The notes under the pieces are model-generated. The model was not told the DNA's origin. It ran no database searches and was given only the letters and a program-made list of their open reading frames with translations. Shown here in pieces: positions 109-27,888 of a DNA stretch of 28,709 nucleotides. A program made the translations under genes and the position numbers. Source of the stretch: a virus; the IMG/VR virus record IMGVR_UViG_3300031521_000289, positions 1-28,709 of that record. One strand, given 5' to 3'. How positions within the stretch are numbered: the first letter of the stretch is position 1; each line of letters opens with the position of its first letter.

Positions 109-984
109 TTAATTTACCAAACCCAAATTTTTATGTACGACATCAATAAATGTTTTTAACATATCAATATTACTTAAAGTATCATCAATTTGATTTACTT
201 CTTTACTTATTTTTGCACGAAGTTTTTTATCAGGGAGAGCATTAACATATTCCACAATTGAATCAATTGTATGTTGAACCATTGTTTTGTTGTCTGATGT
301 TTTTTCTTCTTTTGATGCAAATGTAATTCCATTATCATTTATTTCATAGTATAACATTCCAAGTGGTCCTTTTCTGTTTTTTTGACCCCATGCAATTGTT
401 CTTATATTTTCTTTTTTATGATGAACCATCTCAAGGTGAGCATCAAACATTTGCATAATTGTATTTGCTCCACGAAATTCTCCATCTTTTGTGTTATGAC
501 CAACCATAATAAGAATTGCATTGTTATCTTCAATCCATCTTCTTAATTTTTGAATTATCATGAAATGGGTTTCATCTTCACTATTGTTTGGGTAATCTTC
601 TTTGGCAATAACTTGAAGAGAATCTACTATTATTATTGTTGGTTTAACTTCGTCTAATTCAATTAAAAAATCTTCAAATTTTGGGCAACTTTTGTTGTCA
701 CAAATATAAGCATTTTTATGATTAATATTTAGAGTTTTTGTTTGATCTTTTACAGAAGATGCAGACATTTCTCTTGAATATAAAATAGTTTTATATTTAT
801 TTAATACCTTCTGAAGATTTACAGCAAATGTGGTTTTACCTGCTCCAGATGTTCCAGTAAGAAATATTGCTGTTTTATAAACAAGTCCACCATTTCTTGA
901 CCAAAAATTATCAACTAATTCATTTCCTGTTTTAATTGAACTTTCTACCTCTATTTCTATCTCGCTATAATTTTTGCTTTTCAT
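109..984 (-). CDS. RadA/Sms-like RecA-fold ATPase
   Basis: A 291-aa RecA-fold ATPase. Seen: Walker A GTSGAGKT at residues 44-51, a Walker B strand TIIIVDS ending near D121, GHNTKDGEFRG at 162-172 (RadA proteins have a similar GHVTKxG), and QKNRKGP at 201-207, which matches the position of the RadA KNRFG motif but lacks the Phe. The N-terminal C4 zinc finger and the C-terminal Lon-like domain of bacterial RadA are absent, so this is the motor core only, as in phage recombination or replication ATPases. A role in branch migration, replication or recombination is inferred from the fold. It starts at an ATG 18 nt downstream of a phage-type promoter motif and appears to head its own unit. A DnaB-type helicase core is the alternative. 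Confidence 0.75.
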   Translation of the reverse strand: MKSKNYSEIEIEVESSIKTGNELVDNFWSRNGGLVYKTAIFLTGTSGAGKTTFAVNLQKVLNKYKTILYSREMSASSVKDQTKTLNINHKNAYICDNKSCPKFEDFLIELDEVKPTIIIVDSLQVIAKEDYPNNSEDETHFMIIQKLRRWIEDNNAILIMVGHNTKDGEFRGANTIMQMFDAHLEMVHHKKENIRTIAWGQKNRKGPLGMLYYEINDNGITFASKEEKTSDNKTMVQHTIDSIVEYVNALPDKKLRAKISKEVNQIDDTLSNIDMLKTFIDVVHKNLGLVN

Positions 985-1002
985 AAATTTTTTAATTTTA
1001 TG

Positions 1003-1033
1003 TTATAACGATATTTGTTTTTGTAAGGAGAAA
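1003..1033 (-). promoter_or_regulatory. Phage-type promoter motif before the RadA-like gene
   Basis: On the minus strand TTTCTCC (1033-1027), 15 nt, TCGTTATAA (1011-1003), then 18 nt to the ATG at 984. One of ten copies in the window with the same 15-nt spacing, always just before a gene at the head of a run. Interpreted as -35-like and -10-like boxes. Confidence 0.75.
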
Positions 1034-1035
1034 GT

Positions 1036-1257
1036 TTATTCTATAAAACTCCACCTATAAATTGAATTGCATGTTTTAAATGTTTGTTCATCTATTATTT
1101 CTTTTACAGGAGAAGTTCTATACCAATTCCCACACCAAAAAGCTTCTCCAATTTCTGGGGTTTTTATGAAATCACCTTCTTTAACATAACCAACCTCAAT
1201 GTTATTTGAATGTTTAGCATCTGGAAGTTCTTTTAATTTTTCTAATTTTATTTTCAT
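1036..1257 (-). CDS. Small hypothetical protein, 73 aa
   Basis: Not recognised. Charged N-terminus (MKIKLEKLKELP) followed by a Trp/Tyr-rich segment (GEAFWCGNWYRTSPVKEI) that looks like a compact beta domain; this type of small acidic protein is common in accessory phage regions. Its stop lies 3 nt from the promoter motif of the RadA-like gene, so it is the last gene of the unit that begins at 4013. No signal peptide or membrane segment. Confidence 0.7.
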   Translation of the reverse strand: MKIKLEKLKELPDAKHSNNIEVGYVKEGDFIKTPEIGEAFWCGNWYRTSPVKEIIDEQTFKTCNSIYRWSFIE

Positions 1258-1277
1258 ATTGTTTTCATTTTATTTAT

Positions 1278-1445
1278 TTAATTGTCACCTAAATATTTAC
1301 TTGGAATTGATGTTTCTAAGCCAAATATTTTAACTTTTGTTTTATGAATTCCCTTTTTTATAATCATAAGTTTTGTTCCAATTAAAATTTCAAAAGGAGT
1401 GCATTTAGCAGATGATAGAACTTCTAAAAATTGTCTATTTTTCAT
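1278..1445 (-). CDS. Small hypothetical protein, 55 aa
   Basis: I start this gene at the ATG at 1445 (MKNRQFLEVLSSAKC); an in-frame GTG at 1478 would add 11 residues (66 aa) and place the start 4 nt after the upstream stop. The ATG has the A-rich leader (TACAAAAAC) seen at other starts here. Basic, one cysteine, no recognised domain. It follows the Nudix gene in the same unit. Confidence 0.6.
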   Translation of the reverse strand: MKNRQFLEVLSSAKCTPFEILIGTKLMIIKKGIHKTKVKIFGLETSIPSKYLGDN

Positions 1446-1482
1446 GTTTTTGTATTTAATTCTTGATTCGCAAATCACGAAT

Positions 1483-1917: not shown

Positions 1918-1919
1918 GT

Positions 1920-2126
1920 TTAAGGAATTAAGCTATAATTATATAAAATTTCAATTTTACTCATTTTATTCCATTTTTCTTTGGGATTATATTGTTTTAA
2001 AATTTTTATGCAATCATCAATTTGTTTTTGATTAACTTGTTCCAACTCAAATTGTAATTCTTCATAAAATTTTGTAAATTTACCATTGAAGGTAAATTTT
2101 TCTTCAAAAATTTCAGATAGTTCCAT
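1920..2126 (-). CDS. Small hypothetical protein, 68 aa
   Basis: Not recognised. Acidic, apparently helical (MELSEIFEEKFTFNGKFTKFYEELQFELEQ). Its stop is 2 nt from the ATG of the Nudix gene, which suggests co-translation. No cysteine motif, signal or membrane segment. Confidence 0.7.
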   Translation of the reverse strand: MELSEIFEEKFTFNGKFTKFYEELQFELEQVNQKQIDDCIKILKQYNPKEKWNKMSKIEILYNYSLIP

Positions 2127-2131
2127 AATTT

Positions 2132-2302: not shown

Positions 2303-2313
2303 ATTGTTTATTT

Positions 2314-3620: not shown

Positions 3621-4013
3621 TTATAATTCAAAAGGATTATTTAAACTCAAACTTTGTATAATAATCTTTGGCTGACCATTTTCAATTGCGACTTGCATTG
3701 TTAATCTTCCATTTGTTGCATGTACGTTTTTCTTATATACAACAGTATACGTACCATCATCGTTTTTGTTTACTCCAACTCTTTTTATAACATATCCAAA
3801 TTTCATATGTTGATATAAATTCTTCAGATTTTTTTCTCCAAACTTATCAATTGAAACTTTTGATGTAATTGAAATCATTCCTTCAATATTATTGAGACTA
3901 TAATAAGTTTTAAAAAGTTCACCAATTGTGGTTCCATAAACCATAACTGGACTTTGTGCATTTAAATTAATTGATAAAATAAATGTTGTAATTAAAATTA
4001 ATATTTTTTTCAT
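3621..4013 (-). CDS. Secreted protein, first gene of its unit
   Basis: A 130-aa protein with a clear Sec signal peptide, MKKILILITTFILSINLNAQ, cleaved after NAQ as is usual in Bacteroidota. The mature part has two helices (TTIGELFKTYYSLNN, GEKNLKNLYQHMKF) followed by beta strands (YTVVYKKN, RLTMQVAIENG). No enzymatic motif. Phage-encoded exported proteins of this size can alter the envelope, for example in superinfection exclusion, but that is inference. The ATG lies 11 nt from a phage-type promoter motif. Confidence 0.75.
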   Translation of the reverse strand: MKKILILITTFILSINLNAQSPVMVYGTTIGELFKTYYSLNNIEGMISITSKVSIDKFGEKNLKNLYQHMKFGYVIKRVGVNKNDDGTYTVVYKKNVHATNGRLTMQVAIENGQPKIIIQSLSLNNPFEL

Positions 4014-4024: not shown

Positions 4025-4055
4025 TTATAACGACAAAAATATTATTATGGAGAAA
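4025..4055 (-). promoter_or_regulatory. Phage-type promoter motif before the secreted-protein gene
   Basis: Minus strand TTTCTCC (4055-4049), 15 nt, TCGTTATAA (4033-4025), 11 nt to the ATG at 4013. A full match to the shared motif. It opens the long run of small genes that ends at 1036. Confidence 0.8.
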
Positions 4056-4760: not shown

Positions 4761-5069
4761 TTATATAATTTCAAATTTAGATCTCATTCTATATAATGTT
4801 CTCTCTGAAACCCCAAGGAATTTTGATCTTTGATTATCATTATCAAAAATTATATCTGCAAGTTCTAATTGAATTGAAGGTTCACTAACTAATTTTTTAA
4901 TAATATTGCACTCAGAATCAACTTCTAAAATAGTTTTCTTATCAAATTCTTTTAATTTAAAAGAATCCAATATGTCAAAACCTGAAATTTTATCATTATT
5001 CACTTTTGTTCCAGTTGGAATAAAAAGAGAATTCAAATCTTTGGTTACATAAAGAAATTTATTTTTCAT
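4761..5069 (-). CDS. Protein with C-terminal Fis-type helix-turn-helix
   Basis: 102 aa. The last 25 residues (QRSKFLGVSERTLYRMRSKF) fit the Fis/NtrC-type HTH 'aa..LGvsrrTLyrklkk', indicating DNA binding. The first 75 residues are unrecognised. Candidate phage transcription regulator; targets unknown. Its ATG overlaps the stop of the upstream 52-aa gene (ATGA at 5069-5066), so the two are probably translationally coupled. Confidence 0.7.
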   Translation of the reverse strand: MKNKFLYVTKDLNSLFIPTGTKVNNDKISGFDILDSFKLKEFDKKTILEVDSECNIIKKLVSEPSIQLELADIIFDNDNQRSKFLGVSERTLYRMRSKFEII

Positions 5070-5224
5070 AAATTTTCTATTTTACAGATAGCTTTTTTTG
5101 TGGCTTTAATATATTTATAGTATATTCCACTATTATTATTTCCTGATTTATTGGCCAACATTTTTTCTTTTTCCAATATCGTTCTCAATTTTTTAAGTAA
5201 TTTGCTTTTTTTAAACATTTTCAT
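5066..5224 (-). CDS. 52-aa basic protein coupled to the HTH gene
   Basis: ATG at 5224, TGA at 5066; sequence starts MKMFKKSKLLKKLRTILEKEK and ends KKAICKIENL. Very basic and helical. Three facts support it: it begins 11 nt after a phage-type promoter motif, ends in an ATGA overlap with the HTH gene, and fills the gap exactly. Function unknown; a small nucleic-acid-binding protein is possible. Confidence 0.65.
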   Translation of the reverse strand: MKMFKKSKLLKKLRTILEKEKMLANKSGNNNSGIYYKYIKATKKAICKIENL

Positions 5225-5235: not shown

Positions 5236-5266
5236 TTATAACGAAAATAATAAATTAAAAGTGAAA
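5236..5266 (-). promoter_or_regulatory. Phage-type promoter motif (weaker -35 half)
   Basis: TCGTTATAA (5244-5236) is exact. The upstream box is TTTCACT (5266-5260) in place of TTTCTCC, at the standard 15-nt spacing. 11 nt to the ATG at 5224. It lies in the divergent region shared with the plus-strand endolysin gene. Confidence 0.6.
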
Positions 5267-5324: not shown

Positions 5325-5954
5325 ATGGAATTAACTGTACAACAATTAATAAGCATAATAGGCTCGAATAAAACTGAGCTGGCTAATAATTTAATTAAAT
5401 CACTAAATGACAATCTTAAAAAATATGAAATTAACACAAAACAAAGAATTTGTCATTTTTTAGCACAGGTTTTACATGAAAGTTCAAATTTTTATTATGT
5501 TAAAGAAAATTTAAACTATTCAGCAAAGGGATTGGTTGCTGTTTTTCCAAAATATTTTCCAAATTTAGAAATGGCATTGCAATATCAATATAAACCTGAA
5601 AAAATTGCAAACAAAATCTATAGTTTAAGAATGGGTAATGGAGATGAAGCTTCTGGAGATGGGTATAGATATTGTGGTCGTGGTTTTATTCAAACTACAG
5701 GATTAAATAATTATAAAGCATTTTCAAAATATGCAGGAATTGATTGTGTTAATAAACCAGAATTGTTAGAAACAATACAATATGCTATAGAATCAGCTTG
5801 CTATTTTTGGAAAATTAACAACTTAAATACTTTATCAGATTCAACAAATAAAAATGAAGATGTTGTTTTATCTATAACCAAAATTGTAAATGGTGGAACC
5901 AATGGATATGATGATAGATTACAAAAATTTAATATATGTTTTAACGTTTTGTAA
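5325..5954 (+). CDS. GH19-family endolysin
   Basis: A 209-aa glycoside hydrolase family 19 (chitinase-like) muramidase, the usual phage endolysin fold. Seen: FLAQVLHESSNF with H51-E52 (general acid Glu), ENLNYSA with E61 (second Glu), then MGNGDEASGDGYRYCGRGFIQTTGLNNY (the conserved G.GDG..YRGRG..QlTG substrate-cleft motif) and ITKIVNGGTNG near the end. No signal peptide, so release would require a holin or other pore, none of which is adjacent. It is the only intact plus-strand gene and runs towards the ligase remnant. It degrades host peptidoglycan at lysis. Confidence 0.92.
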   Translation: MELTVQQLISIIGSNKTELANNLIKSLNDNLKKYEINTKQRICHFLAQVLHESSNFYYVKENLNYSAKGLVAVFPKYFPNLEMALQYQYKPEKIANKIYSLRMGNGDEASGDGYRYCGRGFIQTTGLNNYKAFSKYAGIDCVNKPELLETIQYAIESACYFWKINNLNTLSDSTNKNEDVVLSITKIVNGGTNGYDDRLQKFNICFNVL

Positions 5955-6436: not shown

Positions 6437-7729
6437 TTATATAAATGATAATTTTCCGTCTTTATGTCGGATTTTGTTCACGACTGGAATCACTGCAAAT
6501 TCCTCTATCTCCTCAGCTTTAAAGGCATTGGGGACTACTTTTCGAATAATATTATAACTACCGTTGACATCAGCGTGGATTTTGGTTGGTTTACCGAGGA
6601 TTTTGTACCAGCTTCTACTTTCACGATACCCACCAAATTGGTGGTGTGAGTTATCGTTTTTGTTGAAAGTTGGTATTGGGTCCAGATCCAAGAAAGATGC
6701 TTTGGATGTATAAGATTCTTCATTTGTTAAGGCCAATCTTCCCTTAATTTCCAGTTTATAGGATATTTTATCAAAGAGTTTAGTAAATGGGATTGATTGA
6801 GAATTTTGATTATTTTTCGATCCCATTTCTTTGTTTTGTTTCCAGAAATCGTTTTTGCCAAGGATAATTATATTGATGTCATTTTCCTCCAATTGGTCAA
6901 CGACCAAATTGGCTGCTTTGGTAAAATAATCATCAATTTTATTATTCCTTTTCATTGTGAGTTTCTGAATTTTATTTGATGTATATACTCCTTTTGGTAA
7001 CTGACTTTGGTACTCAGCCATTTTTTTGTTGTAATATTGATTAACGCTCTTAACTGGTCTTCCATTAATGATTTTGGGAGTAAACTCCTTAACATTTGAG
7101 GTTAAAGTCAGTAGATTGTTAACACCTGGGTCTGCACCCATATATTTTTTATTATCTTTTTTTGGTTCCTCTATTTCTTTTTTATATATTGTTTCTATTT
7201 GGTAACACCCAGTTTGCACGGATATTTCAACACAAACAAGTTTGCAATCTGTATGCAGATATGGAATTGATATATTTGTTTTTGATAATTTTATAACTCC
7301 TTTTTTTAATCCTGTTGTTGAAATTGATCCAAGTTCGTAGTTAAGTCCGTTTCTTCCTATTTTTGTGTTTTTATATTTTGGAAGACTTGGTATTCCCGTA
7401 TATTTTTGTGGATGTATTTTCCAGTCTTTTATGGATACGAAAAAACTTTTCCAGTTTTTATCCAATCCTATTAATACCTGATTTGATATTTTTCTTGGTA
7501 ATGCTTTGTAATTTTCATCTTTGATCAGCATCTTTCTTATATCATGATAATTAAGGTATATGGCGTGATCAACCATACCTTTTTCTTTTAATTCAGATGT
7601 ATGTATGAAAACCTGACGGATAATGAAATTTGCCCTGTTATATAATTTTTTTGATTTCCAACATAATTCATCAATTTCTTTATAAAATTCATGATTTGTA
7701 TCTATCCTATGTTTCTCAATCAAATACAT
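6437..7729 (-). CDS. tnpB: IS1341-like TnpB with rearranged RuvC site
   Basis: A 430-aa TnpB/OrfB-family protein, the RNA-guided nuclease family of IS200/IS605 elements. RuvC-I is GADPGVNN (D200). At the usual RuvC-II position the sequence is IIILGKNDFWKQ, with G291 where canonical TnpB has Glu; a Glu pair lies further on in TNEESYTSKASFLD (E337/E338), and RuvC-III is HADVNGSYNI (D387). There is no CxxC zinc finger. This arrangement is typical of the IS891/IS1136/IS1341-like branch, in which the catalytic Glu is thought to have moved. No tnpA is nearby. The stop codon abuts the DNA-ligase fragment. Base composition is less extreme than in the neighbouring genes. Confidence 0.85.
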   Translation of the reverse strand: MYLIEKHRIDTNHEFYKEIDELCWKSKKLYNRANFIIRQVFIHTSELKEKGMVDHAIYLNYHDIRKMLIKDENYKALPRKISNQVLIGLDKNWKSFFVSIKDWKIHPQKYTGIPSLPKYKNTKIGRNGLNYELGSISTTGLKKGVIKLSKTNISIPYLHTDCKLVCVEISVQTGCYQIETIYKKEIEEPKKDNKKYMGADPGVNNLLTLTSNVKEFTPKIINGRPVKSVNQYYNKKMAEYQSQLPKGVYTSNKIQKLTMKRNNKIDDYFTKAANLVVDQLEENDINIIILGKNDFWKQNKEMGSKNNQNSQSIPFTKLFDKISYKLEIKGRLALTNEESYTSKASFLDLDPIPTFNKNDNSHHQFGGYRESRSWYKILGKPTKIHADVNGSYNIIRKVVPNAFKAEEIEEFAVIPVVNKIRHKDGKLSFI

Positions 7730-7905: not shown

Positions 7906-8163
7906 CTATTGTTTAATAACAGCCTTCTTAATTACTATACTATCAGAAACAAATTCAATATCTCCTTCTTTTAAACCCAACAAAAACATGGTTCTCAAGT
8001 AGTTTTTATAATCTTTAGTGTTTTTAAACGAAGCTCCAACAATGGAATTCCATACAACTTTGCAATCTTCTTTACCTAACTGCATTTTTTCCCCATTATT
8101 CCTAATTTCCTCAACAGAACCTTGTTTTGATTCATTCGTTGTAATTCTAAGTGATTTTTCCAT
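7906..8163 (-). CDS. Hypothetical protein, 85 aa
   Basis: Unrecognised. The middle (KEDCKVVWNSIVGASFKNTKDYKNYLRTMFLLGLKEGDIEFV) reads as two helices followed by a strand. The ATG at 8163 lies 12 nt after a phage-type promoter motif, so this is the first gene of a short unit whose downstream neighbour is the TnpB insertion and ligase relic; the ligase may once have been transcribed from here. Confidence 0.7.
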   Translation of the reverse strand: MEKSLRITTNESKQGSVEEIRNNGEKMQLGKEDCKVVWNSIVGASFKNTKDYKNYLRTMFLLGLKEGDIEFVSDSIVIKKAVIKQ

Positions 8164-8175: not shown

Positions 8176-8206
8176 TGATAACGAAATTATTTTTGAGGAG
8201 GAGAAA
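8176..8206 (-). promoter_or_regulatory. Phage-type promoter motif
   Basis: TTTCTCC (8206-8200), 15 nt, TCGTTATCA (8184-8176, one mismatch to TCGTTATAA), 12 nt to the ATG at 8163. Confidence 0.7.
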
Positions 8207-9652: not shown

Positions 9653-9844
9653 TTAAAATTTTATAAAACATAACATATTGTATTCATTGATTATATTCAA
9701 ATCCAAAAAATCATTAGATTCAATATTTTTTTTGATGGTTGATTTTAAATTTTCGATTCTTTTTTGTTGAATATATTTTGGGCACATACCACCGTTTTGT
9801 TCAATTGTTGGAATAATTTCTTCCAGATATTTTCTTTTATCCAT
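9653..9844 (-). CDS. Small hypothetical protein, 63 aa, overlapping the ATPase gene
   Basis: MDKRKYLEEIIPTIEQNGGMCPKYIQQKRIENLKST, mostly helical. Its first 100 nt overlap the 3' end of the DnaB-like gene in another frame. Codon quality in the overlap looks better in this frame, so the ATPase tail may be the newer sequence. If the overlap is avoided, translation could begin at Met20 (9787). Confidence 0.55.
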   Translation of the reverse strand: MDKRKYLEEIIPTIEQNGGMCPKYIQQKRIENLKSTIKKNIESNDFLDLNIINEYNMLCFIKF

Positions 9845-10527
9845 GCTGTAATTTTAATTAAAATATTTCGTTCTAAAACATTAAATGTTGAATATTTAAA
9901 ATCCATTTTTATAGGAATATCAAATCTTTGTTTTCCATATCTGTTTTTTAAAATTTTAATTTTATTTATTTCAATTTTCATTACTGTGTTAGCAATAAAA
10001 AGTGGTTCTGTTGATGAAAAACAAAAAATATCATCGTCAATATTTTTTGTTTGTAATGTAACAATTATTGGAATATTTAAATCAATAGCTAATTCTCTTA
10101 ATTTCCAAAAATTATTTTTTAAATAATGACTCTCATCAATAATTAAAACATCTGGAATAAATCCATTTAATTTATGTTTCTCCAATATTAGTTCTATGTT
10201 TTTATAAAAGTTTTTTTCTGCAAGAGATGGTATCATTTTTTTAATAAAAAAATGTCCTATATATTCTTTTTTAAATTCTGGTATATAATTTTCGTAGAAA
10301 CTTTTAATGCTCTTTTTGTTTAAACATGAATAAGTTTTTTTAAGAACATATGATTCAGGTTCAGAACATGTAATAAATAAAACATCTTTACCTTGCTCAA
10401 TATAATCGCAAGCAAAATTAACTGCAAATGTAGATTTACCAGTTGCACATGCACCACCAATAATATTTATTGAACCAAGTTCTGGATTATTTCCTAATAA
10501 TTTATAAATTTTTTGAATATTTTTCAT
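9745..10527 (-). CDS. DnaB-like RecA-fold helicase core
   Basis: 260 aa. Walker A GGACATGKS at 24-32, Walker B DVLIIDESHYL with D131, a sensor-like strand PIIVTLQTKN, and ILKNRYGKQRF at the place where DnaB-family proteins have 'ilKnRnG'. The N-terminal primase-interacting domain of DnaB is lacking. Most like the DnaB/RadA ATPase core used as a phage replicative or accessory helicase; DESH in Walker B is less usual for DnaB ('DYLQ'). It starts on the last base of the upstream stop (TAATG). The last ~33 residues overlap the next gene in another frame and may be a read-through tail. Confidence 0.7.
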   Translation of the reverse strand: MKNIQKIYKLLGNNPELGSINIIGGACATGKSTFAVNFACDYIEQGKDVLFITCSEPESYVLKKTYSCLNKKSIKSFYENYIPEFKKEYIGHFFIKKMIPSLAEKNFYKNIELILEKHKLNGFIPDVLIIDESHYLKNNFWKLRELAIDLNIPIIVTLQTKNIDDDIFCFSSTEPLFIANTVMKIEINKIKILKNRYGKQRFDIPIKMDFKYSTFNVLERNILIKITAWIKENIWKKLFQQLNKTVVCAQNIFNKKESKI

Positions 10528-10931
10528 TATTCTTTTATATTCAGATTATACCAAATTGCATATTTTGCAACAGCTTCAAAAATTGCATCTTTTAAAAAAC
10601 ATCCTTCTTTTATCACTTTTATTGTTTCAAATTCATTGGGAACGGATGGATGTATTTTGCATTCATCTGCGTAAATTGTAACAAAATCTCTTGTGTTTAT
10701 TTTTTCAACAACAGGCATTAACCAACTATAATCTAGGAAAAAATTAATCGTGTTTGGAAAAAGAGGATCTCCGTTTTTTTCTAAAATTGGAACATTTAAA
10801 TAATTAATTTTATTCACTCTGTCCATATCTTTAACTCCAAGCCACTTCATTTTAAATTCATCAGTTGCCTCTTTATAACCCATAAAAATGGCGATAGCTT
10901 TTTCATATTCAAAAAGTTGATTTGATTCCAT
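10527..10931 (-). CDS. Paralogous phage protein 1 ('YSWLMPVVEKI' family)
   Basis: 134 aa, head of its unit, 13 nt after a promoter motif. Core FFLDYSWLMPVVEKINTRDFVTIYADECKI and C-terminal AIFEAVAKYAIWYNLN. The gene at 10957-11382 shares the layout: an N-terminal helix with a short hydrophobic motif, 'H/Y.S.(D/E)W(L/I)MP(V/I)', a Cys near the middle, and a terminal helix ending '...VV.F.K.Y.N'. This pattern is known to me from many Bacteroidota phage hypotheticals. Function unknown. Confidence 0.7.
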   Translation of the reverse strand: MESNQLFEYEKAIAIFMGYKEATDEFKMKWLGVKDMDRVNKINYLNVPILEKNGDPLFPNTINFFLDYSWLMPVVEKINTRDFVTIYADECKIHPSVPNEFETIKVIKEGCFLKDAIFEAVAKYAIWYNLNIKE

Positions 10932-10944: not shown

Positions 10945-10975
10945 TTATAACGAAATTTATTTAATTAAGTGGGAA
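10945..10975 (-). promoter_or_regulatory. Phage-type promoter motif (weak -35 half)
   Basis: TCGTTATAA (10953-10945) is exact; at 15-nt spacing the upstream box is TTCCCAC (10975-10969), 4 of 7 matches. 13 nt to the ATG at 10931. It overlaps the 3' end of the upstream gene, which constrains the sequence. Confidence 0.55.
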
Positions 10976-11382
10976 TTATTTTTGTAGAATTTTAAAAAAT
11001 CATAAACAACAAGAAAAATACATTCATTTAAATAATACTTGTTTGTACTATATTGAGTAAAAAACAAATCTTTTGCTTCATAACAACCATTTACATAATC
11101 ATAACCTTCTGAAATATCTGTAATTCTAAGGTAACAACTATTATGGAATATAGCAGAATCGTTTTGTTTATAACCTAAATAGTCTGTAAATGTTGACCTT
11201 TCACAAACTAACATCCAAATAGGCATAATCCATTCAAAGGATTGATGGAAAAATAGTTTGGTTGAATATCTTCCTAGGTATTTGTATCTTTCTCCCCCTC
11301 CATAATCCAACTTCCTAAGATCAACAAAATTTGCAATAAGTTGATTTCCTTCTTCTATTTGTTTTGATGTCAATTTTTTCAT
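10957..11382 (-). CDS. Paralogous phage protein 2 ('FEWIMPIW' family)
   Basis: 141 aa, a divergent relative of the adjacent gene at 10527-10931: NQLIANFVDLR at the start, FFHQSFEWIMPIWMLVCE in the middle, and NECIFLVVYDFLKFYKNN at the end. The two are separated only by the promoter of the second, consistent with tandem duplication followed by promoter acquisition. Overlaps the methyltransferase gene by 4 nt (ATGA). Function unknown. Confidence 0.7.
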   Translation of the reverse strand: MKKLTSKQIEEGNQLIANFVDLRKLDYGGGERYKYLGRYSTKLFFHQSFEWIMPIWMLVCERSTFTDYLGYKQNDSAIFHNSCYLRITDISEGYDYVNGCYEAKDLFFTQYSTNKYYLNECIFLVVYDFLKFYKNNSHLIK

Positions 11383-13764: not shown

Positions 13765-14961
13765 CTACCCACCCACGCCAAAGGCGATTGGATGGGCTTC
13801 GGGTTTCATAGAGTGTGCTTTGTTGCCAAAGTCTGATTTACTCTCCACCTTTGTAATCGCCAGTTCCTGACGATATATTTTTAATCCTTCTTTTAGAATG
13901 TTCTTTGCAGCATTAAGGTCACGGTCTAATATATGTCCATTTTTGCAAGTCCATTCTCTTATTGAAAGATTTAAGTCTTGATTTATCCAACCACATTCAC
14001 AACAGGTTTTACTTGAAGGATACCAGCGATTGATTTTAATAATTTGTTTATCATTCCAATCTGCTTTATATTCCAACAATCTTACGAAAGTCCCCCAACT
14101 GGCATCTGATATATGTTTTGCAAGTTTATGGTTTTTAACCATTCCTTTCACATTCAAGTCTTCTAATGCGATTATATCATAATTAGACACTAATTGGTGG
14201 GATACTTTATGTAAGTTATCCATTCGTGAGTTGGTTATCTTCTCGTGAATTAAGGCTGTTTTCCGTCTTTGTTTTTCAAACGAATTACTACCTTTTATTT
14301 TACGAGAAAGATGTTTTTGTGCTTTCGCTAACTTTCTTTCATATCGCTTTGTGTATTTGTTATTTTTGAATTTAACTCCATCAGATGTTATTGCAAAGTC
14401 TTTTAATCCTAAGTCAATTCCACATACAGCACCTGTCTTTTCTTTTGGTTGATATTGTTCTTCTGAAAGTATAGATACGAAATATTTGCCTGTTGGTGTT
14501 TTGCTTAAAGTACATTTCCCAATTTCGCCCTTTACTTCACGGTGAACATTAACTTTAATTCCTTCCTTAAACTTTGGTGCGTAAAATCTATCTCCTTCCA
14601 GTTTTGCAAATTGGGGAACAGTAAACGTATTCTTCTTTTTTCTTGACTTAAATCTTGGAAACTTAGCGTTACCACGAAAAAAATTTACATAAGCAGTATC
14701 TAAGCATCTTAAAGCAAACTGCAATGATTGGCTATTAACTTCTTTAAGCCAAACAGTTTCATCTTTTTTCTTTAATTCTGTTAAAGTTGCTGCTTGTGCA
14801 TAGTAATTATCTGACTTTTTATCTGCTTGATACTGTTCTTTACGCTCATTCAGAAAATGATTATAGACAAATCGGATACATCCAAAATGCTTATCCAACA
14901 GCGTTTTCTGCTCTTGGTTTGGCATTAATTCAAATTGGTATGTCCGAAATATCGTTTTCAT
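13765..14961 (-). CDS. tnpB: TnpB RNA-guided endonuclease
   Basis: 398 aa, full length for IS605 TnpB. N-terminal TYQFELMPNQEQKTLLDKHFGCIRFVYNHF is the conserved OrfB start. RuvC motifs are all present: GIDLGLKDF (D183), IIALEDLN (E267) and DRDLNAAKN (D348). The zinc-ribbon region has C-x2-C (around 320-323) and CKNGH (C339, H343), i.e. a Cys/His variant of the usual four-Cys finger. Known function: cuts DNA next to a transposon-specific motif, guided by an omega-RNA from the element's right end. The stop codon lies inside the RE hairpin, so mRNA and omega-RNA overlap. The protein should be active even though TnpA is not. Confidence 0.93.
   Translation of the reverse strand: MKTIFRTYQFELMPNQEQKTLLDKHFGCIRFVYNHFLNERKEQYQADKKSDNYYAQAATLTELKKKDETVWLKEVNSQSLQFALRCLDTAYVNFFRGNAKFPRFKSRKKKNTFTVPQFAKLEGDRFYAPKFKEGIKVNVHREVKGEIGKCTLSKTPTGKYFVSILSEEQYQPKEKTGAVCGIDLGLKDFAITSDGVKFKNNKYTKRYERKLAKAQKHLSRKIKGSNSFEKQRRKTALIHEKITNSRMDNLHKVSHQLVSNYDIIALEDLNVKGMVKNHKLAKHISDASWGTFVRLLEYKADWNDKQIIKINRWYPSSKTCCECGWINQDLNLSIREWTCKNGHILDRDLNAAKNILKEGLKIYRQELAITKVESKSDFGNKAHSMKPEAHPIAFGVGG
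13768..13796 (-). ncRNA. RE hairpin and probable 3' part of the omega-RNA scaffold
   Basis: Reverse strand: GCCCATCC…GGGTGGG outer stem of 8 pairs, a 2-nt bulge, then CGCC-TTT-GGCG. This imperfect hairpin is the kind TnpA recognises at the right end and the kind that ends the omega-RNA. The RNA would run on through GTAGTTCAC, and its guide would start at 13759 with AATGGTAAAATAATAAAC. The 5' end of the RNA is not determinable here. Confidence 0.65.
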
Positions 14962-15217: not shown

Positions 15218-15240
15218 TTCATTATATTTGTGCCTTACAT

Positions 15241-15269
15241 CCAATCCACGCTAAAAGGCGATGAATTGG
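15241..15269. repeat. LE hairpin of the IS element
   Basis: CCAATCCA (15241-15248) pairs with TGAATTGG (15262-15269) with one G-T pair on the minus strand, then a 1-nt bulge and CGC/GCG around a 6-nt loop. Same size and design as the RE hairpin (core 'ATCGCCTTT…GCGTGG' on the minus strand in both), which supports a matched LE/RE pair. Confidence 0.7.
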
Positions 15270-15285
15270 TTTTACGGCACGTTTT

Positions 15286-15576
15286 ATAAAATTGTTGTAA
15301 ATAATCAAGTTTTAACCCTTTTTTAACAAGAGTTAAATCTTTGTTTTTTATTCTATTGTTTTTGTAATCACTTATTGCAGATAAAATAATATCTTTATAT
15401 CCTATATTAAAATCAACAATATTTATTTTTCTTTCTGTAATTCTACCATTAACAATTACTCTTAATTGGTGTACTTTGTTACTTTTTAAATACATAATCT
15501 CAAAATCATCAAAACCAATGAGGTTAAATACATCATTGGTTTTTTCGTATTTTGCTATTTTTATTATATTTTTCAT
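15286..15576 (-). pseudogene. 5' fragment of the gene interrupted by the IS element
   Basis: ATG at 15576, 8 nt after a phage-type promoter motif. 97 native codons run MKNIIKIAKYEKTNDVFNLI to KGLKLDYLQQFY; reading continues 15 codons into the IS (KTCRKTNSSPFSVDWM) and stops at 15235, giving a 113-aa chimera. Beta-rich with a basic helical end (KNNRIKNKDLTLVKKG); not recognised. The missing 30 residues lie at 13667-13759. As the head gene of its unit, the insertion could also reduce expression of the primase-like and methyltransferase genes downstream. Confidence 0.75.
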
Positions 15577-15584: not shown

Positions 15585-15615
15585 ATATAACGAATCATAA
15601 GTTTATATGGAGAAA
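15585..15615 (-). promoter_or_regulatory. Phage-type promoter motif
   Basis: TTTCTCC (15615-15609), 15 nt, TCGTTATAT (15593-15585; one mismatch at the last base), 8 nt to the ATG at 15576. Confidence 0.75.
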
Positions 15616-18892: not shown

Positions 18893-19378
18893 TTATTTGT
18901 TGTTTAAAAAATAATTAAATCCATCTCTATAAAATTCACCTTCATTTTTTTTACTTTTTAAAATTTTCTCATTTTTTGTATTATTTTTGGAATCACTATA
19001 ACCATTTATCCAAATATCGCTTATTTTTCCAATTCCGAAGTATTGTTTTGTTGGATGATTATAAGCGTAATTAAGTGAAACATTTTCTGGAGTTTTTTCA
19101 ATTTTAACATCTCCAAACAAATGTTGTTGTTCAGATGTAATAAGAAAATCAAAATATTTGTTTTTTGCAAAATATAGATAACCACAAGCATGAAGATTTG
19201 AAATATCAATATCTTCGTGAATTAAATCAACAATTATTGTTCCTCTGTTCCGAACCAAATAATTAATTAATTCAGTTTTTAATTCTTTTGAAGCTTGTTT
19301 AATTTTTAACTTATCAAGCATTTCTGTTTTTGGATCACTTAATTCTTTTAATATGTTATTGAATTCTCTTTTTTTCAT
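18893..19378 (-). CDS. Hypothetical protein, 161 aa
   Basis: Helical, basic first third (MKKREFNNILKELSDPKTEMLDKLKIKQASKELKTELIN), then a mixed segment with ACGYLYFAKNKYFDFLITSEQQHLFGDVKIEKTPE. A short tail resembles 'GEFYRDGFNYFLNNK'. No family recognised. ATGA overlap with the zinc-ribbon gene upstream. Confidence 0.7.
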   Translation of the reverse strand: MKKREFNNILKELSDPKTEMLDKLKIKQASKELKTELINYLVRNRGTIIVDLIHEDIDISNLHACGYLYFAKNKYFDFLITSEQQHLFGDVKIEKTPENVSLNYAYNHPTKQYFGIGKISDIWINGYSDSKNNTKNEKILKSKKNEGEFYRDGFNYFLNNK

Positions 19379-19773
19379 TTTACAAATCTATTCCCACATT
19401 TTTTACATTTAAAATGATCCATTGTCCAGTTTTTACCTTTTGGATCTACAAATTGAATATTTTCCCTTTCTCCACAAGAAGAACAAAAAATATTTTCTGA
19501 AATCAGTGTTTCTTTTTGTTTTGTTTCTACAAATTGAGTAAAATGTAAAACCAAAGCAGGATTATATCCATTTATTTTTAATGGATTATTTTGATCCATT
19601 ATAACTCTTATTAAATTTATATCCCAAATTTTTTCCAATATCTCACTTTTATCTTTAAATTTATCAATAAGATATTTTTTAAATTCTTTTCCAATTTCTA
19701 TAGCTTCTTCATTTGTTAAATTTATGTTTGGAAAATTAATTCTTATAAAATGGGGGAAAAACTCTAAATCCAT
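19375..19773 (-). CDS. Zinc-ribbon protein, head of its unit
   Basis: 132 aa. The C-terminus (FCSSCGERENIQFV, then HFKCKKCGNRFVK) is a four-cysteine zinc ribbon, CxxCG…CxxCG. The N-terminal 95 residues are helical (NEEAIEIGKEFKKYLIDKFKDKSEILEKIWD) with no match. Zinc ribbons of this form bind nucleic acid or bridge transcription proteins. The ATG lies 17 nt from a full phage-type promoter motif; the gene leads the unit that ends with the RNA ligase. Confidence 0.7.
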   Translation of the reverse strand: MDLEFFPHFIRINFPNINLTNEEAIEIGKEFKKYLIDKFKDKSEILEKIWDINLIRVIMDQNNPLKINGYNPALVLHFTQFVETKQKETLISENIFCSSCGERENIQFVDPKGKNWTMDHFKCKKCGNRFVK

Positions 19774-19790: not shown

Positions 19791-19821
19791 TTATAACGAA
19801 TATGTTTTTGTTTTGGAGAAA
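19791..19821 (-). promoter_or_regulatory. Phage-type promoter motif
   Basis: TTTCTCC (19821-19815), 15 nt, TCGTTATAA (19799-19791), 17 nt to the ATG at 19773. Exact in both halves. Confidence 0.8.
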
Positions 19822-19894: not shown

Positions 19895-20310
19895 AATATA
19901 TCTACCAAATCACCTAATGTAAGATATACTTCATAATATCCATTACTATGCGATTTTGAATATGCATAGTTATAAACTTTATCTCTGTATTTTTCAGGTA
20001 TATTATTTAATCCGCTTTGATCTTTAATAAATTCTTCGATTAATGAATTTAATCTTTGTTGTTCCAGATTATAAATTTCTTTCTGTTTGTCGTTTTCTTT
20101 CTTAAGAATTTCATATTGTTTTAGTTCTTCTGCATATTTTATTACATCATCAGAACTGTGTTTTAAACCAAGTGTTGGTTTTGAAATCCTATCAGGATAT
20201 TCATTGTTATTGCTATTTCTAATATCATCAATAACTTCATAAACGCTTTTATCTCTTTTAAGAAAATAAGAATTTACATCTTCTATTGTTTTAAATTGTG
20301 ATTCCATCAT
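19885..20310 (-). CDS. Coiled-coil protein, 141 aa
   Basis: Residues 55-100 (DVIKYAEELKQYEILKKENDKQKEIYNLEQQRLNSLIEEF) are a long charged helix with heptad pattern, probably coiled coil. C-terminal GYYEVYLTLGDLVDIFIG is a short beta/helix end. Unrecognised. It overlaps the upstream gene by 20 nt and ends in the palindrome at 19875-19894. The second Met is an equally good start. Confidence 0.65.
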   Translation of the reverse strand: MMESQFKTIEDVNSYFLKRDKSVYEVIDDIRNSNNNEYPDRISKPTLGLKHSSDDVIKYAEELKQYEILKKENDKQKEIYNLEQQRLNSLIEEFIKDQSGLNNIPEKYRDKVYNYAYSKSHSNGYYEVYLTLGDLVDIFIG

Positions 20311-20611
20311 TTTGTTTTTTAAATTGTTCTAATATATAATTCATTTCTTTGTGTTGAGTGCAATATTTCCCATCAAGCCAAGAAATAAAGTTAATCATGT
20401 CTTGGCTTGAAAATTCATTTTTGTTTTCACAAGCATCATTTGGAATTTCTCTTAATATATTTTTGATTTCATCAATATCTAAAATTGCTTGTTTTTCATT
20501 TTTATCTAAAAATCTTGCTGTTTTATCTGAATTTTCTTTATTTTTTAATATTGAAAAATAATTACAAATTGGAGACATTAAATTTCTCAGTCTTGTTATT
20601 TTTGTATCCAT
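20291..20611 (-). CDS. Hypothetical protein, 106 aa, head of a short unit
   Basis: Helical and mixed-charge (MDTKITRLRNLMSPICNYFSILKNKEN, DEIKNILREIPNDACENKNEF, INFISWLDGKYCTQHKEMNYILEQF). Unrecognised. ATG lies 9 nt after an exact promoter motif; the unit consists of this gene and the coiled-coil gene only. Confidence 0.65.
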   Translation of the reverse strand: MDTKITRLRNLMSPICNYFSILKNKENSDKTARFLDKNEKQAILDIDEIKNILREIPNDACENKNEFSSQDMINFISWLDGKYCTQHKEMNYILEQFKKQNDGITI

Positions 20612-20620: not shown

Positions 20621-20651
20621 TTATAACGAAAATATTTTATTGTAGGAGAAA
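20621..20651 (-). promoter_or_regulatory. Phage-type promoter motif
   Basis: TTTCTCC (20651-20645), 15 nt, TCGTTATAA (20629-20621), 9 nt to the ATG at 20611. Exact in both halves; sits 3 nt after the DHH gene's stop. Confidence 0.8.
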
Positions 20652-23329: not shown

Positions 23330-24238
23330 TTATTTATTATTATTTTTCATCCAATTCTGTACCATAAAAAGTTGACCACACCCTCCGCCAATATCATCTT
23401 GCCCAGCAGGATTAAAAACCCTTACATTATATCCAGATTCAACAAAACAATTTGATATATTATTTATTTTATCTAATTCTTTATAACCTTTATCTTTCAT
23501 GTTTTCATCATTGGAACAAATTACTGAAAAAGTGAAATTAAAAATAAGAGGAGAAAATAAATCTTTTAATCTATTCATTTCTTCTTCATTTTGATTATTT
23601 TCTCCAATGCAATAATTTATATAAACAGGTCTTTGGGTACATTGATTCCATTTAATTCCGAAATCACGCATTTCACGTAAATTAAATTTGTTCTTATATG
23701 GAATTAATTTATTGCGTTTATGTTCTAATGCCTCATGTACTGAAAACTGAAGCCCAACTTTATCAATTTCATAACTTATATCCAATAATTTTTCAAACGC
23801 TTCTTCGTTTCTTGGGCACATTGTTGAAACTAATAATTCTGCATTTTTATATAAATTGTGTAATTTTCTAATTGCATTTATTACATTATCTATATTTAAA
23901 ATTGGTTCTCCCATACTCATAAACATAATTTGAAATCTTTCTCCGGCAGAATTAACATCTTCAATATCCATATCTTTTAGGCAATATTTGACCTGATCAA
24001 TTATTTCTTCACTAGTTAAATTTCTGATAAATTTTTTACCAGTTCCACAGAATGCACAACCTACTGGACAACCTACTGGACAACCTACTGGACAACCACT
24101 TTGAACTGAAACACACAATACTGTTCTTTTGTAAAAGTTTTCATATTTGTATAAAACTGCTTCTGCAATTGCATCTGGGAATTCAAAAACATATTTCCAA
24201 ACATTTCCTTCAGAACTATCAAATCTTTTAATCAGCAT
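23330..24238 (-). CDS. RlmN-like radical SAM enzyme with expanded Cys loop
   Basis: 302 aa. RlmN/Cfr features: RTVLCVSVQSGC, the [4Fe-4S] loop ending CPVGCAFCGTG (C57-x3-C61-x2-C64), FIRNLTSEEIIDQV, MSMGEP (107-112), LQFSVHEA, and the C-terminal DDIGGGCGQL with C287 at the methyl-carrying cysteine position of RlmN. RlmN makes 2-methyladenosine in 23S rRNA A2503 and some tRNAs. The usual N-terminal accessory domain is mostly missing (about 40 residues remain). The loop holds two extra 'CPVG' units (C49 and C53), created by a 12-bp repeat. Whether it still binds the cluster correctly is unknown. Probably RNA methylation. Confidence 0.85.
   Translation of the reverse strand: MLIKRFDSSEGNVWKYVFEFPDAIAEAVLYKYENFYKRTVLCVSVQSGCPVGCPVGCPVGCAFCGTGKKFIRNLTSEEIIDQVKYCLKDMDIEDVNSAGERFQIMFMSMGEPILNIDNVINAIRKLHNLYKNAELLVSTMCPRNEEAFEKLLDISYEIDKVGLQFSVHEALEHKRNKLIPYKNKFNLREMRDFGIKWNQCTQRPVYINYCIGENNQNEEEMNRLKDLFSPLIFNFTFSVICSNDENMKDKGYKELDKINNISNCFVESGYNVRVFNPAGQDDIGGGCGQLFMVQNWMKNNNK
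24056..24096. repeat. 12-bp tandem repeat inside the radical SAM loop
   Basis: Three perfect copies of CTACTGGACAAC (24061-24072, 24073-24084, 24085-24096) plus a 5-base partial copy on the left. On the coding strand this is GGTTGTCCAGTA, encoding Gly-Cys-Pro-Val, in frame. The unmodified family has one such Cys. Confidence 0.95.
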
Positions 24239-24239: not shown

Positions 24240-24446
24240 TTAATAATTTATTTTATATTTTACAAATTTTTCCATTTCATCTAAAGCATCAAAATATCCA
24301 CTACAACCATCTTGAGAACCGATAGTTTGTTTTCCAAATTCTATTTTTGTAAGCAATATTTTAGATTTATCTTTATCAAAATCATCTTGAATCTGCCAAT
24401 TATTATAATCATCAATAATTTTATTTAATTCAATTCTACTTGATTT
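24240..24446 (-). CDS. Open frame without a standard start codon
   Basis: 68 codons, KSSRIELNKIIDDYNNWQIQDDF, then FGKQTIGSQDGCSGYFDALDEMEKFVKYKINY, ending in TAA at 24240, 1 nt from the radical SAM ATG. Composition and amphipathic patterns look coding, and nothing else fills the gap. There is no ATG, GTG or TTG near the start; an ATT (about 24434) overlapping the lipoprotein's stop is possible. It may have lost its start or be read after a frameshift from the lipoprotein gene. Confidence 0.5.
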   Translation of the reverse strand, partial: KSSRIELNKIIDDYNNWQIQDDFDKDKSKILLTKIEFGKQTIGSQDGCSGYFDALDEMEKFVKYKINY

Positions 24447-24717
24447 TTAGTTTTAAAATTGAAATCTCCTCGCATTTACAAACAGAAATATGTTTATAAA
24501 TACATATTGATCCATTATCATCAATAATATCTACAGTATCATTTTTTTGAACATCCAATCCTTTAACAAATTTTATCTCAAGTGTTTTGTCTAAAGTCAC
24601 AGCTTTTGTTATTGAATCACTCCTTTCTGTAACAATCCAAGTTCTATGGTAAGAATTCATGTGTTGAATGCAGCTTGTTGAAACAGCAAACAAAATAATT
24701 ATAAATACTTTTTTCAT
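24436..24717 (-). CDS. Small lipoprotein, head of a large unit
   Basis: 93 aa. MKKVFIIILFAVSTSC is a lipoprotein signal with lipobox STSC (C16). Mature part beta-rich with LEIKFVKGLDVQKNDTVDIIDD, resembling part of the lipoprotein at 8587-8826, and an odd CKCEE near the end. ATG 8 nt after an exact promoter motif. Probably anchored in the cell envelope; function unknown. Confidence 0.7.
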   Translation of the reverse strand: MKKVFIIILFAVSTSCIQHMNSYHRTWIVTERSDSITKAVTLDKTLEIKFVKGLDVQKNDTVDIIDDNGSICIYKHISVCKCEEISILKLKIK

Positions 24718-24725: not shown

Positions 24726-24756
24726 TTATAACGAAAAAAATAAAAAATTGGAGAAA
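24726..24756 (-). promoter_or_regulatory. Phage-type promoter motif
   Basis: TTTCTCC (24756-24750), 15 nt, TCGTTATAA (24734-24726), 8 nt to the ATG at 24717. Exact. It drives the unit running to the DHH gene at 20654. Confidence 0.8.
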
Positions 24757-25149
24757 TTAATAAATTTTAAATTCTAAAAATTGTTTATCTAATTCATTCC
24801 AATCTACCATCATTTCTTTGATTTCTGTTGTTGGCTTAAGTGGAATATTTTCAGTAATATCATCTATGAATATTTCTTGATTCCTCAACATATATTCCCA
24901 ATTCCAAGGAGTGGGAATATGTTTTTTGGGAGTTATTTTTGTAATTGGTTTGATATGTTCATTATTTAAGAAATCAATTGCAGCTTCTAATGTTCCGTTG
25001 TAACATTGAACTCTATATGTATTTAAAATTATTTCGTGGCCAGCTTCTTGTAATTTTCTAATTATTTTAAAGCAATCATGGTTATATTTACCAATTTTAG
25101 GATATAGTTCCTCAACTACAGTATTATCAAAATCTAGATATATTTTCAT
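24757..25149 (-). CDS. HAD-superfamily hydrolase
   Basis: 130 aa. Motif I LDFDNTVVE (D6 nucleophile, D8), motif II-like ILNTYR, and motif IV-like IFIDDI. The small cap-less design with 'GHEIILNTYRVQCYNGTLEAAIDFLN' resembles phage HAD phosphatases/5'-nucleotidases. Polynucleotide 3'-phosphatase or nucleotide phosphatase activity is possible, and would fit with the RNA ligase, but the substrate is not evident. Preceded by a host-type promoter and not by the phage-type motif. Confidence 0.75.
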   Translation of the reverse strand: MKIYLDFDNTVVEELYPKIGKYNHDCFKIIRKLQEAGHEIILNTYRVQCYNGTLEAAIDFLNNEHIKPITKITPKKHIPTPWNWEYMLRNQEIFIDDITENIPLKPTTEIKEMMVDWNELDKQFLEFKIY

Positions 25150-25178: not shown

Positions 25179-25210
25179 CAAATATAAAAATAAAATTTGA
25201 TTTTGACAAA
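25179..25210 (-). promoter_or_regulatory. Host-type (Bacteroidota) promoter
   Basis: Minus strand TTTG (25210-25207), 20 nt, TATATTTG (25186-25179). This matches the Bacteroidota primary-sigma consensus TTTG-N19/20-TAnnTTTG. 29 nt remain to the ATG of the HAD gene. Probably used early by unmodified host polymerase. Confidence 0.65.
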
Positions 25211-25724: not shown

Positions 25725-25742
25725 ATTTTATATTTAAATAGT

Positions 25743-25797: not shown

Positions 25798-25807
25798 TCA
25801 TTTTTAA

Positions 25808-26002: not shown

Positions 26003-26013
26003 ATTTTCATTTT

Positions 26014-26193
26014 TTAGTTTATATTTTTATCATTTTTCAAAATCTCAATAATTTCATCAATAGATATTGTTTTTGGTATTTCATTGCAACGACTCCACCT
26101 ATCAAATTCACCAAAAAAATCCCATAAAATATTATTACAACCATTGTAATATCCACAAAAATCATTATTAAAAGAACTAAATCGTACTAGATT
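26014..26193 (-). pseudogene. C-terminal gene remnant beside the broken TnpB
   Basis: A frame with no start codon: NLVRFSSFNNDFCGYYNGCNN, then ILWDFFGEFDRWSRCNEIPK and TISIDEIIEILKNDKNIN, stop at 26014. The aromatic-rich, well-formed sequence indicates a real protein whose N-terminal part was cut off by the TnpB element that begins 10 nt upstream. The 5' part was not recognised on the far side of that element. Confidence 0.55.
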
Positions 26194-26203
26194 TCATAGA
26201 AAT

Positions 26204-27264
26204 TTATAGAACGAATCTAAATTTATCTATTACTTTACTTTCTTGTATCATTCTGTGGTTACTTTTTAGGGGCGAAGCCTTGTCATCCATAACCGTGCAG
26301 TCCTCAAGCGTTAATTCGGGTGTAAGTATCCCTATTTTTACTTTGTTATTATTTTGTTTTTCTTCCTCTATAAGAAATAATTTATAAAGTCTGATTCCTT
26401 CTTTATAGATGTTGATAGCAGCATTAAGGTCACGATCAATGTTAAGACCGCAATGTTCGCACACATAAATGCGTTCATCTAGGCCCAATTTTTCTTTTTT
26501 ATGACCACAACAGCTACATAGTTTTGAACTAGGAAACCATCTACTTATTTTGATTACATTGCCACCTTTCCATTTTGCTTTATACTGAAGCATTTCAATA
26601 AATCTACCGAGACCGAGGTCTTGGATTGATTTTGCGAGGTGGTGGTTTTTCATCATTCCTTTAATGTTAAGGTCTTCTAAAATGATAACTTGGTTTTCGT
26701 TTGTCCAACCAATATGGAGGCAAAATACTTTCCTGATGTTGCTTTGGATATTGTGACTGATTTTATATTTTGCTTGTTTTTTAGCAAATAATTTTTGTCT
26801 GAATCTGAACACCTATATTTTAAATTTTTTATTTCTTTCGTCAGATTTAATTTGTTGTTTTTATCTGAAAGGCATTTTTTGCTGACAGCATCAACAGGGA
26901 ATCTTGATCTTTGCCTATCAAATTTCTTTTTAAATTTTGGAAATCCAACTTTTTCTCCTTTGCGCTTATTGGAACAAGAATCAAAGAAGTTCTTGTATGC
27001 TTGGATGAGGTCAATGATAGCTTGTTTCATCACCTTTGTATTCTGTTCAAGCATAAAACTTTTTTCTGGATTTTTTCTTATGTAATCTGTAAAATATTTA
27101 CCCAGATATTTAAGGTTAATAACATTCGTTTTTCCTTCTTTATAAGAATTAATGCAATGTGAAAGACAAGTATTATATACCAAACGATAACACCCGTGAT
27201 TCTTCGCCAATAGAATCCTCTGCCTCTCATTTGGGTAAATCCTTATCTTTTTTGCATTTAACAT
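26204..27264 (-). pseudogene. tnpB: TnpB pseudogene lacking RuvC-I
   Basis: Two frames of one OrfB/TnpB. The N-terminal part (27264 to about 26705) runs MLNAKKIRIYPNERQRILLAKN to SVTISKATSGKYFASILV; the C-terminal part (about 26703 to 26204) resumes NENQVIILEDLNIKGMM (RuvC-II Glu), a full CxxC…CxxC zinc finger (CSCCGHKKE…CEHCG) and DRDLNAAINI (RuvC-III). About 90 residues expected between them, including GIDxGIK (RuvC-I) and the bridge helix, are gone, and the join shifts frame. Nuclease-dead. The start has AGGA 9 nt upstream, a Shine-Dalgarno-like site unlike the phage genes. Confidence 0.85.
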
Positions 27265-27486
27265 TTTTTTATTCCTAAATAATTTTATATATTTGTGCTG
27301 GTATTTATAAATATGTCAAAATTTTGTAAAAACTTAATATAAATCAAAACAATTCTATATATTGTTTATTTGTATACAACCCAATAATATCCTGCTTTTC
27401 TTTGCATAATTTTTTATTTTTTGTTTTTTTCATAACAAATATAAGCAATTATTTTAAATGCTATTGGTTAATAATCATTTACTTAA
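27265..27486 (-). other. Gap with no convincing gene
   Basis: 222 bases between the TnpB relic and the next gene. It must contain the relic's left end and possibly the 5' stump of the gene it entered. An ATG at 27433 preceded directly by a TATATTTG element gives a 29-aa frame (MKKTKNKKLCKEKQDIIGLY to YIELF, stop at 27344); an overlapping frame reads MQRKAGYYWVVYK. Neither can be joined in frame to the remnant at 26014-26193. Confidence 0.5.
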
Positions 27487-27846
27487 TCACAAAATTATTA
27501 TTTTTTTAAATAAGCAACTCACTGCATAATCATCAATTTCATTATTTTTGTTTGCACAAGGTATAAATAATTCACCATCTTCAATAAACCCTTTTGTATT
27601 TACAATTATAAGTTCGTAAGTTTCAACTCCCTTAAATATAACTGTCTCTCCAATTGAGAAACCTTCTTTCTTATTTCTTTGGATAGCTCTCTCAATATCA
27701 ACAATAAAAGCTCGATATTCTGAAGCTTTAGTATCTAATCTTACTTTTCTCTCTATATCAAGTCTACTACCATTATTTGTGTTTTTATCAATAACATCTT
27801 CAATGGTTTTTAATTTTCTTTTGTAATCATCTAATAATATTTCCAT
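27487..27846 (-). CDS. Hypothetical protein with N-terminal coiled coil, 119 aa
   Basis: Residues 1-60 are a charged helix pair (MEILLDDYKRKLKTIEDVIDK, then TKASEYRAFIVDIERAIQR), followed by a small beta domain (FSIGETVIFKGVETYELIIVNTKGFIEDGELFIPC). The beta part resembles the SH3-like small proteins elsewhere in the window. ATG 11 nt after a promoter motif. Function unknown. Confidence 0.7.
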   Translation of the reverse strand: MEILLDDYKRKLKTIEDVIDKNTNNGSRLDIERKVRLDTKASEYRAFIVDIERAIQRNKKEGFSIGETVIFKGVETYELIIVNTKGFIEDGELFIPCANKNNEIDDYAVSCLFKKIIIL

Positions 27847-27857
27847 AGTTTTTTATT

Positions 27858-27888
27858 TTATAACGAAAAAATTTTAAAATAAGAGTAA
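27858..27888 (-). promoter_or_regulatory. Phage-type promoter motif (weaker -35 half)
   Basis: TCGTTATAA (27866-27858) is exact; at 15-nt spacing the upstream box is TTACTCT (27888-27882), 5 of 7 matches. 11 nt to the ATG at 27846. Confidence 0.65.

Follow-up and report, generated by a model that had tools for sequence, protein, structure and literature searches.

A recurrent two-block motif in a viral contig

The 28.7-kilobase (kb) viral contig analyzed here, IMG/VR record IMGVR_UViG_3300031521_000289 (positions 1 to 28,709, hereafter the window), repeats the motif TTTCTCC-N15-TCGTTATAA shortly before runs of genes. This arrangement raises two questions, namely, what the motif does and which protein recognizes it. 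As described below, the letters and placement of the motif indicate that it is very likely a class of promoters, and a sigma factor encoded by the phage is its likely reader. The window has a guanine-plus-cytosine content of 25%, and nearly all of its genes lie on the minus strand.

Ten sites with one fixed spacer

The 16 specified bases of the consensus were scored on both strands of the window, and 200 dinucleotide-preserving shuffles were used as a control. Ten sites on the coding strand had been listed by a first-pass annotation of the sequence. Direct reading confirmed all of them in coordinates, strand, and letters, and all are on the minus strand (Table 1). At 0, 1, 2, 3, 4, and 5 mismatches, the minus strand contained 5, 2, 2, 1, 0, and 14 sites, compared with shuffle means of 0, 0, 0.005, 0.12, 1.1, and 9.7, respectively. 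Ten sites with three or fewer mismatches were thus found against approximately 0.13 expected, and they were separated by the gap at four mismatches from a background that began at five. The same annotation had proposed that the motif be counted on the other strand and inside genes. The plus strand contained 0, 0, 1, 1, 7, and 38 sites at the same mismatch levels; the only two at three or fewer mismatches, at 10177 and 28057, were antisense within genes 9745-10527 and 27907-28341.

The spacer was 15 nucleotides (nt) long in 10/10 sites. We then varied the gap in TTTC-Nk-CGTTAT from k = 5 to k = 31 on both strands, and eight copies were observed at k = 19 and none at any other length, so the invariant gap noted earlier was borne out with no second spacer length. 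The two halves also behaved as first described: the TCGTTATAA block had at most one mismatch at every site, its variants being TCGTTATAT and TCGTTATCA, whereas the TTTCTCC block was exact in 7/10 sites and degenerate at 5236, 10945, and 27858. Site 10945 has the poorest upstream block of the set, which may be because it overlaps the 3′ end of a gene. All ten sites lie 8 to 18 nt before an ATG, again as annotated, and only 4.2% of window positions fall 20 nt or less upstream of a start. The motif is real and far above chance.

Table 1. Motif sites and associated features of the window
Feature	Positions	Strand	Mismatches	Nucleotides to ATG	Gene downstream and remarks
Site 1, TTTCTCC-N15-TCGTTATAA	1003-1033	−	0	18	109-984 (RecA/KaiC-DnaB-like ATPase)
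Site 2	4025-4055	−	0	11	3621-4013 (putative secreted protein); run from 3621 to 1036
Site 3, upstream half TTTCACT	5236-5266	−	2	11	5066-5224; run includes helix-turn-helix protein 4761-5069
Site 4, TCGTTATCA	8176-8206	−	1	12	7906-8163 (DUF7688, PF24737)
Site 5, upstream half TTCCCAC	10945-10975	−	3	13	10527-10931; overlaps 3′ end of gene 10957-11382
Site 6, TCGTTATAT	15585-15615	−	1	8	15235-15576
Site 7	19791-19821	−	0	17	19375-19773 (zinc-ribbon-like protein)
Site 8	20621-20651	−	0	9	20291-20611
Site 9	24726-24756	−	0	8	24436-24717 (putative lipoprotein); abuts stop of 24757-25149
Site 10, upstream half TTACTCT	27858-27888	−	2	11	27487-27846
A-rich initiation region, example, AATAAAAA	24718-24725	−			Between TTATAA and ATG; predicted place of the transcription start
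GH19-type endolysin gene	5325-5954	+			phrog_181, E = 6.7e-75; no plus-strand motif with three or fewer mismatches upstream

Anatomy of the motif and its genomic setting

Together with its downstream flank, the motif reads TTTCTCC-N15-TCGTTATAA-N2-TAAAAA. In the upstream block, the information profile showed an invariant T-T-.-C together with two more C's that are strongly conserved, and in the downstream block an invariant T-C-G-T-T-A-T; the spacer that joins the blocks is AT-rich and otherwise unconstrained. After TTATAA the sequence continues as N N T A A A A A A, with A at columns +5 to +7 in 10/10 sites. The two blocks are approximately two helical turns (22 nt) apart, which, together with the rigid spacer, is the arrangement of −35- and −10-type promoter elements. 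The motif is also strand-specific and recurs shortly upstream of gene runs more often than chance allows. Intergenic gaps at the sites are frequently promoter-sized, being 39, 41, 42, 48, and 51 nt at five of them. The run behind the site at 24726 includes radical SAM, RlaP-like nucleotidyltransferase, and DHH genes. Most genes within runs lack the motif, as do other unit starts, for example those at 14961, 17758, 18490, 24238, and 25149 and that of the plus-strand endolysin gene. The motif therefore marks one class of unit starts, not all of them.

Start signals, probable host, and predicted leaders

Start codons in the window are preceded by A-rich sequence that peaks at −3, where 80% of genes have A. 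Shine-Dalgarno sequences were not enriched before window genes (4/61 starts compared with 6.6 expected), supporting the first-pass view of a host group that does not rely on them. The same A-rich pattern free of Shine-Dalgarno sequences has been described for Flavobacterium johnsoniae (PMC6847099), and because the starts match it, the host is likely a member of the Bacteroidota. Host-type TAnnTTTG was not enriched between window genes (7 copies on the minus and 10 on the plus strand), and classical sigma-70 sites occurred in the window at chance frequency only. TA[TC]ATTTGC, which resembles a host-type −7 element, was observed at 25182, 18522, and 14992, 27 to 29 nt before ATGs, in one case that of a TnpB gene. 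These copies may be host-sigma promoters for genes without the main motif.

Leader lengths were predicted by combining sigma-70 geometry, which places the start approximately 7 nt after the −10 block, with the distances from motif to ATG. The predicted leaders would be approximately 2 to 3 nt at three sites (distances of 8, 8, and 9 nt), 5 to 7 nt at five, and 11 to 12 nt at two. By this geometry, the nearly leaderless mRNAs proposed earlier are retained for the three sites nearest to their ATG but not for the other seven, where 5 to 12 nt are predicted. Of the transcripts predicted in F. johnsoniae, 87% begin with a leader longer than 10 nt (PMC6847099). The phage class would thus begin unusually near the start codon, at approximately 2 to 12 nt compared with a mean of 33 nt in that Flavobacterium species (PMC6847099).

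The A-run could act as a signal for translation, for initiation, or for both. At 1003 and 19791, the sites farthest from their ATG, two A-runs are present, one beside the motif and one near the ATG. This layout is expected if the first A-run belongs to the promoter, and it hints that promoter and translation signals both exist. It is also conceivable, although quite unlikely, that polymerase slips on the A-run as it initiates, adding A residues that are not templated; almost leaderless mRNAs would then gain short poly(A) leaders suited to the A-rich start context that Bacteroidota ribosomes prefer.

Probable recognition by a phage sigma factor

Primary-sigma promoters of Bacteroidota consist of TTTG and TAHHTTTG, the −7 element being 4 to 5 nt before the start (PMC6847099). 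TAHHTTTG is not part of the conserved motif, which upholds the earlier statement that the motif differs from the host consensus. Neither block agrees with TTTG/TAHHTTTG of the host type, so both recognition regions appear to have been replaced. The two-block layout with its rigid spacer fits a sigma factor that touches −35 and −10. TTTCTCC, at about −38 to −32, would then be the −35-type element, and TCG(T)TATAA would be an extended −10-type element, in which the invariant G occupies the position of the extended −10 G. The A-run would form the initiation region, and transcription would start approximately 7 nt past the −10 element. The most likely reader would be the core RNA polymerase of the host, equipped with a phage sigma factor that has both DNA-binding regions 2 and 4; the gene for this factor would lie outside the fragment, in another part of a phage genome that is probably huge. 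The genes served, which concern DNA and RNA repair, nucleotide metabolism, and unassigned functions, would constitute an early or middle set. We infer the promoter role, start point, leader length, timing, and the sigma factor itself from the sequence.

The closest annotated phage, the uncultured 462-kb LR756500.1, shares with the window an RNA ligase (58% identity), a radical SAM protein (76%), an endolysin (52%), DenV (40%), and a DHH protein (35%). It encodes four proteins with Sigma70 region 2 (Sigma70_r2) above the family cut-off, two of them sigma-70-like and two resembling extracytoplasmic function (ECF) sigma factors. A fifth sigma-like protein resembles T4 gp55 and matches late sigma families of PHROGs. 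Because the closest relative encodes these five proteins, a phage sigma factor is the likely reader of the window motif, as the first-pass annotation had suggested. Promoter-like classes were also observed in LR756500.1: a long TTATTATATTTA with an upstream ACTTTA-like element; GATATATAA-nnAAAA, which resembles a T4 late promoter; and a two-part class, AAACA-Nk-CATATAA, with 20 copies at k = 14 and 0 to 4 at every other length. At least three promoter-like classes and five sigma-like genes are a rich set for a phage.

Two proteins of the window had been named as candidates for the factor, a helix-turn-helix-like protein (4761-5069, minus strand) and a zinc-ribbon-like protein (19375-19773, minus strand). 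Neither is supported. Each gave only sub-threshold matches, to helix-turn-helix and zinc-ribbon families, respectively; each had no relative in the phage collection and a low-confidence single-sequence model, and the sole link of each to the motif is the copy before its own run.

Several observations weigh against a promoter class read by a phage sigma factor. No Sigma70_r2 domain was found in the window, which is a 28.7-kb fragment. LR756500.1 does not use the window motif, having seven exact copies of TCGTTATAA compared with 19 of a reversed control, so the link to its sigma factors is by analogy. General A-richness before starts accounts in part for the A-run near the ATG, and the columns of this run were nearly as strong when anchored at the ATG as at the motif. 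Furthermore, the searched collections yielded no relative that shares the motif, so conservation offers no test of it. Exact scans of IMG/VR with two patterns returned isolated matches only, without promoter context or shared genes, and the exact motif with the A-run gave only five isolated, chance-like matches in 84,980 prokaryote species genomes. The phage collection gave no match at the nucleotide level, and protein-anchored scans for kin using the ATPase and the RNA ligase as a single protein found none. The motif was absent from all 67 radical SAM loci of a protein-anchored scan; an RNA ligase scan gave one locus, on a contig that resembles LR756500 and lacks the motif. Enriched upstream words in 20-kb regions around radical SAM relatives showed no equivalent motif. 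Separately, the extended −10-like element GTGTTATAAT was observed five times on a 216-kb viral contig, in each case with an ATG within approximately 40 nt downstream.

Alternative explanations

The upstream block might instead be bound by a phage activator that redirects the host sigma factor through a small MotA/AsiA-like pair of anti-sigma factor and co-activator, as in T4 middle transcription. T4 middle promoters likewise join a non-standard upstream block, the MotA box, to a −10 block, and T4-like repair genes (DenV family, RNA ligase) are present in the region. However, T4 middle promoters keep the host −10 element, whereas TTATAA, and not TAHHTTTG, is found at the ten sites. Since both blocks of the window motif are non-host, such appropriation is less likely than a phage sigma factor. 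AsiA-like proteins are encoded by some huge phages (PMC7162821), but no AsiA match was found in LR756500 or in the window, itself a fragment. We consider this explanation unlikely. A host alternative sigma factor borrowed by the phage would also account for a two-part promoter of fixed spacing, which is typical of ECF sigma factors, and Bacteroidota encode many of these. Nevertheless, a host regulon would give many more exact matches with the A-run than the five obtained from the species genomes, making a borrowed host factor highly improbable.

Certain jumbo phages encode polymerases of their own (PMC5312081), and as the window is a fragment, the gene for a single-subunit or phiKZ/AR9-like multisubunit RNA polymerase that uses the motif could lie outside it. 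The promoters of AR9 are compact, however, reading AAATATATATTAT-(6N)-G and AACA-(6N)-TA/G (PMC5312081), and are not two blocks 22 nt apart. No match to an RNA polymerase beta family was found in LR756500.1; the search with single-subunit families also gave no match, but since no control genome matched either, it is weak. We therefore give a phage polymerase very little credence. It is similarly hard to believe that the motif is an element other than a promoter, such as an operator of a phage regulator or a signal for RNA processing or translation. The constant position just before an ATG would suit such an element, and in Bacteroidota A-rich leaders are important to translation (PMC6847099). 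Yet an element acting at the RNA level would hardly account for two DNA blocks with a rigid spacer and a TATAA core, the distance to the ATG varies by 10 nt whereas the spacer never does, and genes within runs mostly lack the motif. A promoter read by a phage sigma factor is the more probable reading.

Comparison with known promoter systems

Late promoters of Salmonella phage 7-11, whose sigma factor gp47 recognizes GTAAtg-(16)-aCTA (PMC8948821), are the closest experimental precedent. As in the window, they are two-part, phage-specific, of fixed spacer, and located before several gene runs; their starts are 6 to 9 bp from the downstream element, similar to the geometry predicted here. They differ in sequence and in host phylum, and their sigma factor was identified and tested, whereas that of the window motif is putative. 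In the related phage phiEco32, gp36, which has no region 4, recognizes the single element tAATGTAtA (PMC8948821). These middle and late promoters share a TATA-containing −10-type element with the window motif but are a single block without a −35 element, in contrast to the strongly conserved upstream block of the window.

T4-type late promoters (gp55) and the GATATATAA-nnAAAA class of LR756500 resemble the window motif in that an A-rich initiation region comes after a TATAA core, but they have no −35 block. The window motif is not a TATAAATA −10 block standing by itself, since TTTCTCC precedes it and is exact in most sites. The AAACA-N14-CATATAA class of LR756500.1 is likewise built of two blocks at a sharply fixed spacing and precedes genes of a related huge phage; however, its letters are different and its distances to ATG are mostly larger and more variable. 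The primary-sigma promoters of Bacteroidota probably share the host phylum with the window, as suggested by the translation signals, but match it in neither block. Phage-specific promoters that probably depend on phage sigma factors are a known kind, and the window motif is probably a new example.

Other features of the window

The window encodes a DenV-type repair glycosylase, an RNA ligase, a radical SAM protein, a DHH phosphoesterase, a nucleotidyltransferase, NUDIX and methyltransferase proteins, and the GH19-type endolysin on the plus strand. It also contains three TnpB-type transposase regions (6437-7729, 13765-14961, and 26204-27264), the last of which is split into two frames and looks decayed. 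The endolysin gene is the sole confident plus-strand gene; it is divergent from site 5236, has TTATAAAAAAAT upstream, and presumably belongs to another expression class. In the radical SAM gene (23330-24238), a tandem repeat in the cysteine cluster motif (SGCPVGCPVGCPVGCAFCG) was observed, an 8-residue expansion relative to LR756500.1.

Implications

The motif probably adds a further case in which a phage supplies its own promoter-recognition protein. The comparison with LR756500.1 suggests that such huge phages carry several sigma factors and promoter classes, which diverge quickly between phages. Bacteroidota have promoters of their own that differ strongly from the textbook type, and no mapped promoter classes for their phages were found in the searchable literature; a motif with ten sites and a fixed spacer provides a direct point of entry. 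From it, transcription starts can be predicted to within a few bases, as can a sigma factor of the phage and mRNAs whose leaders are unusually short for a phylum in which leaders are the norm. If confirmed, such pairs of sigma factor and promoter could serve as orthogonal expression tools in Bacteroidota.

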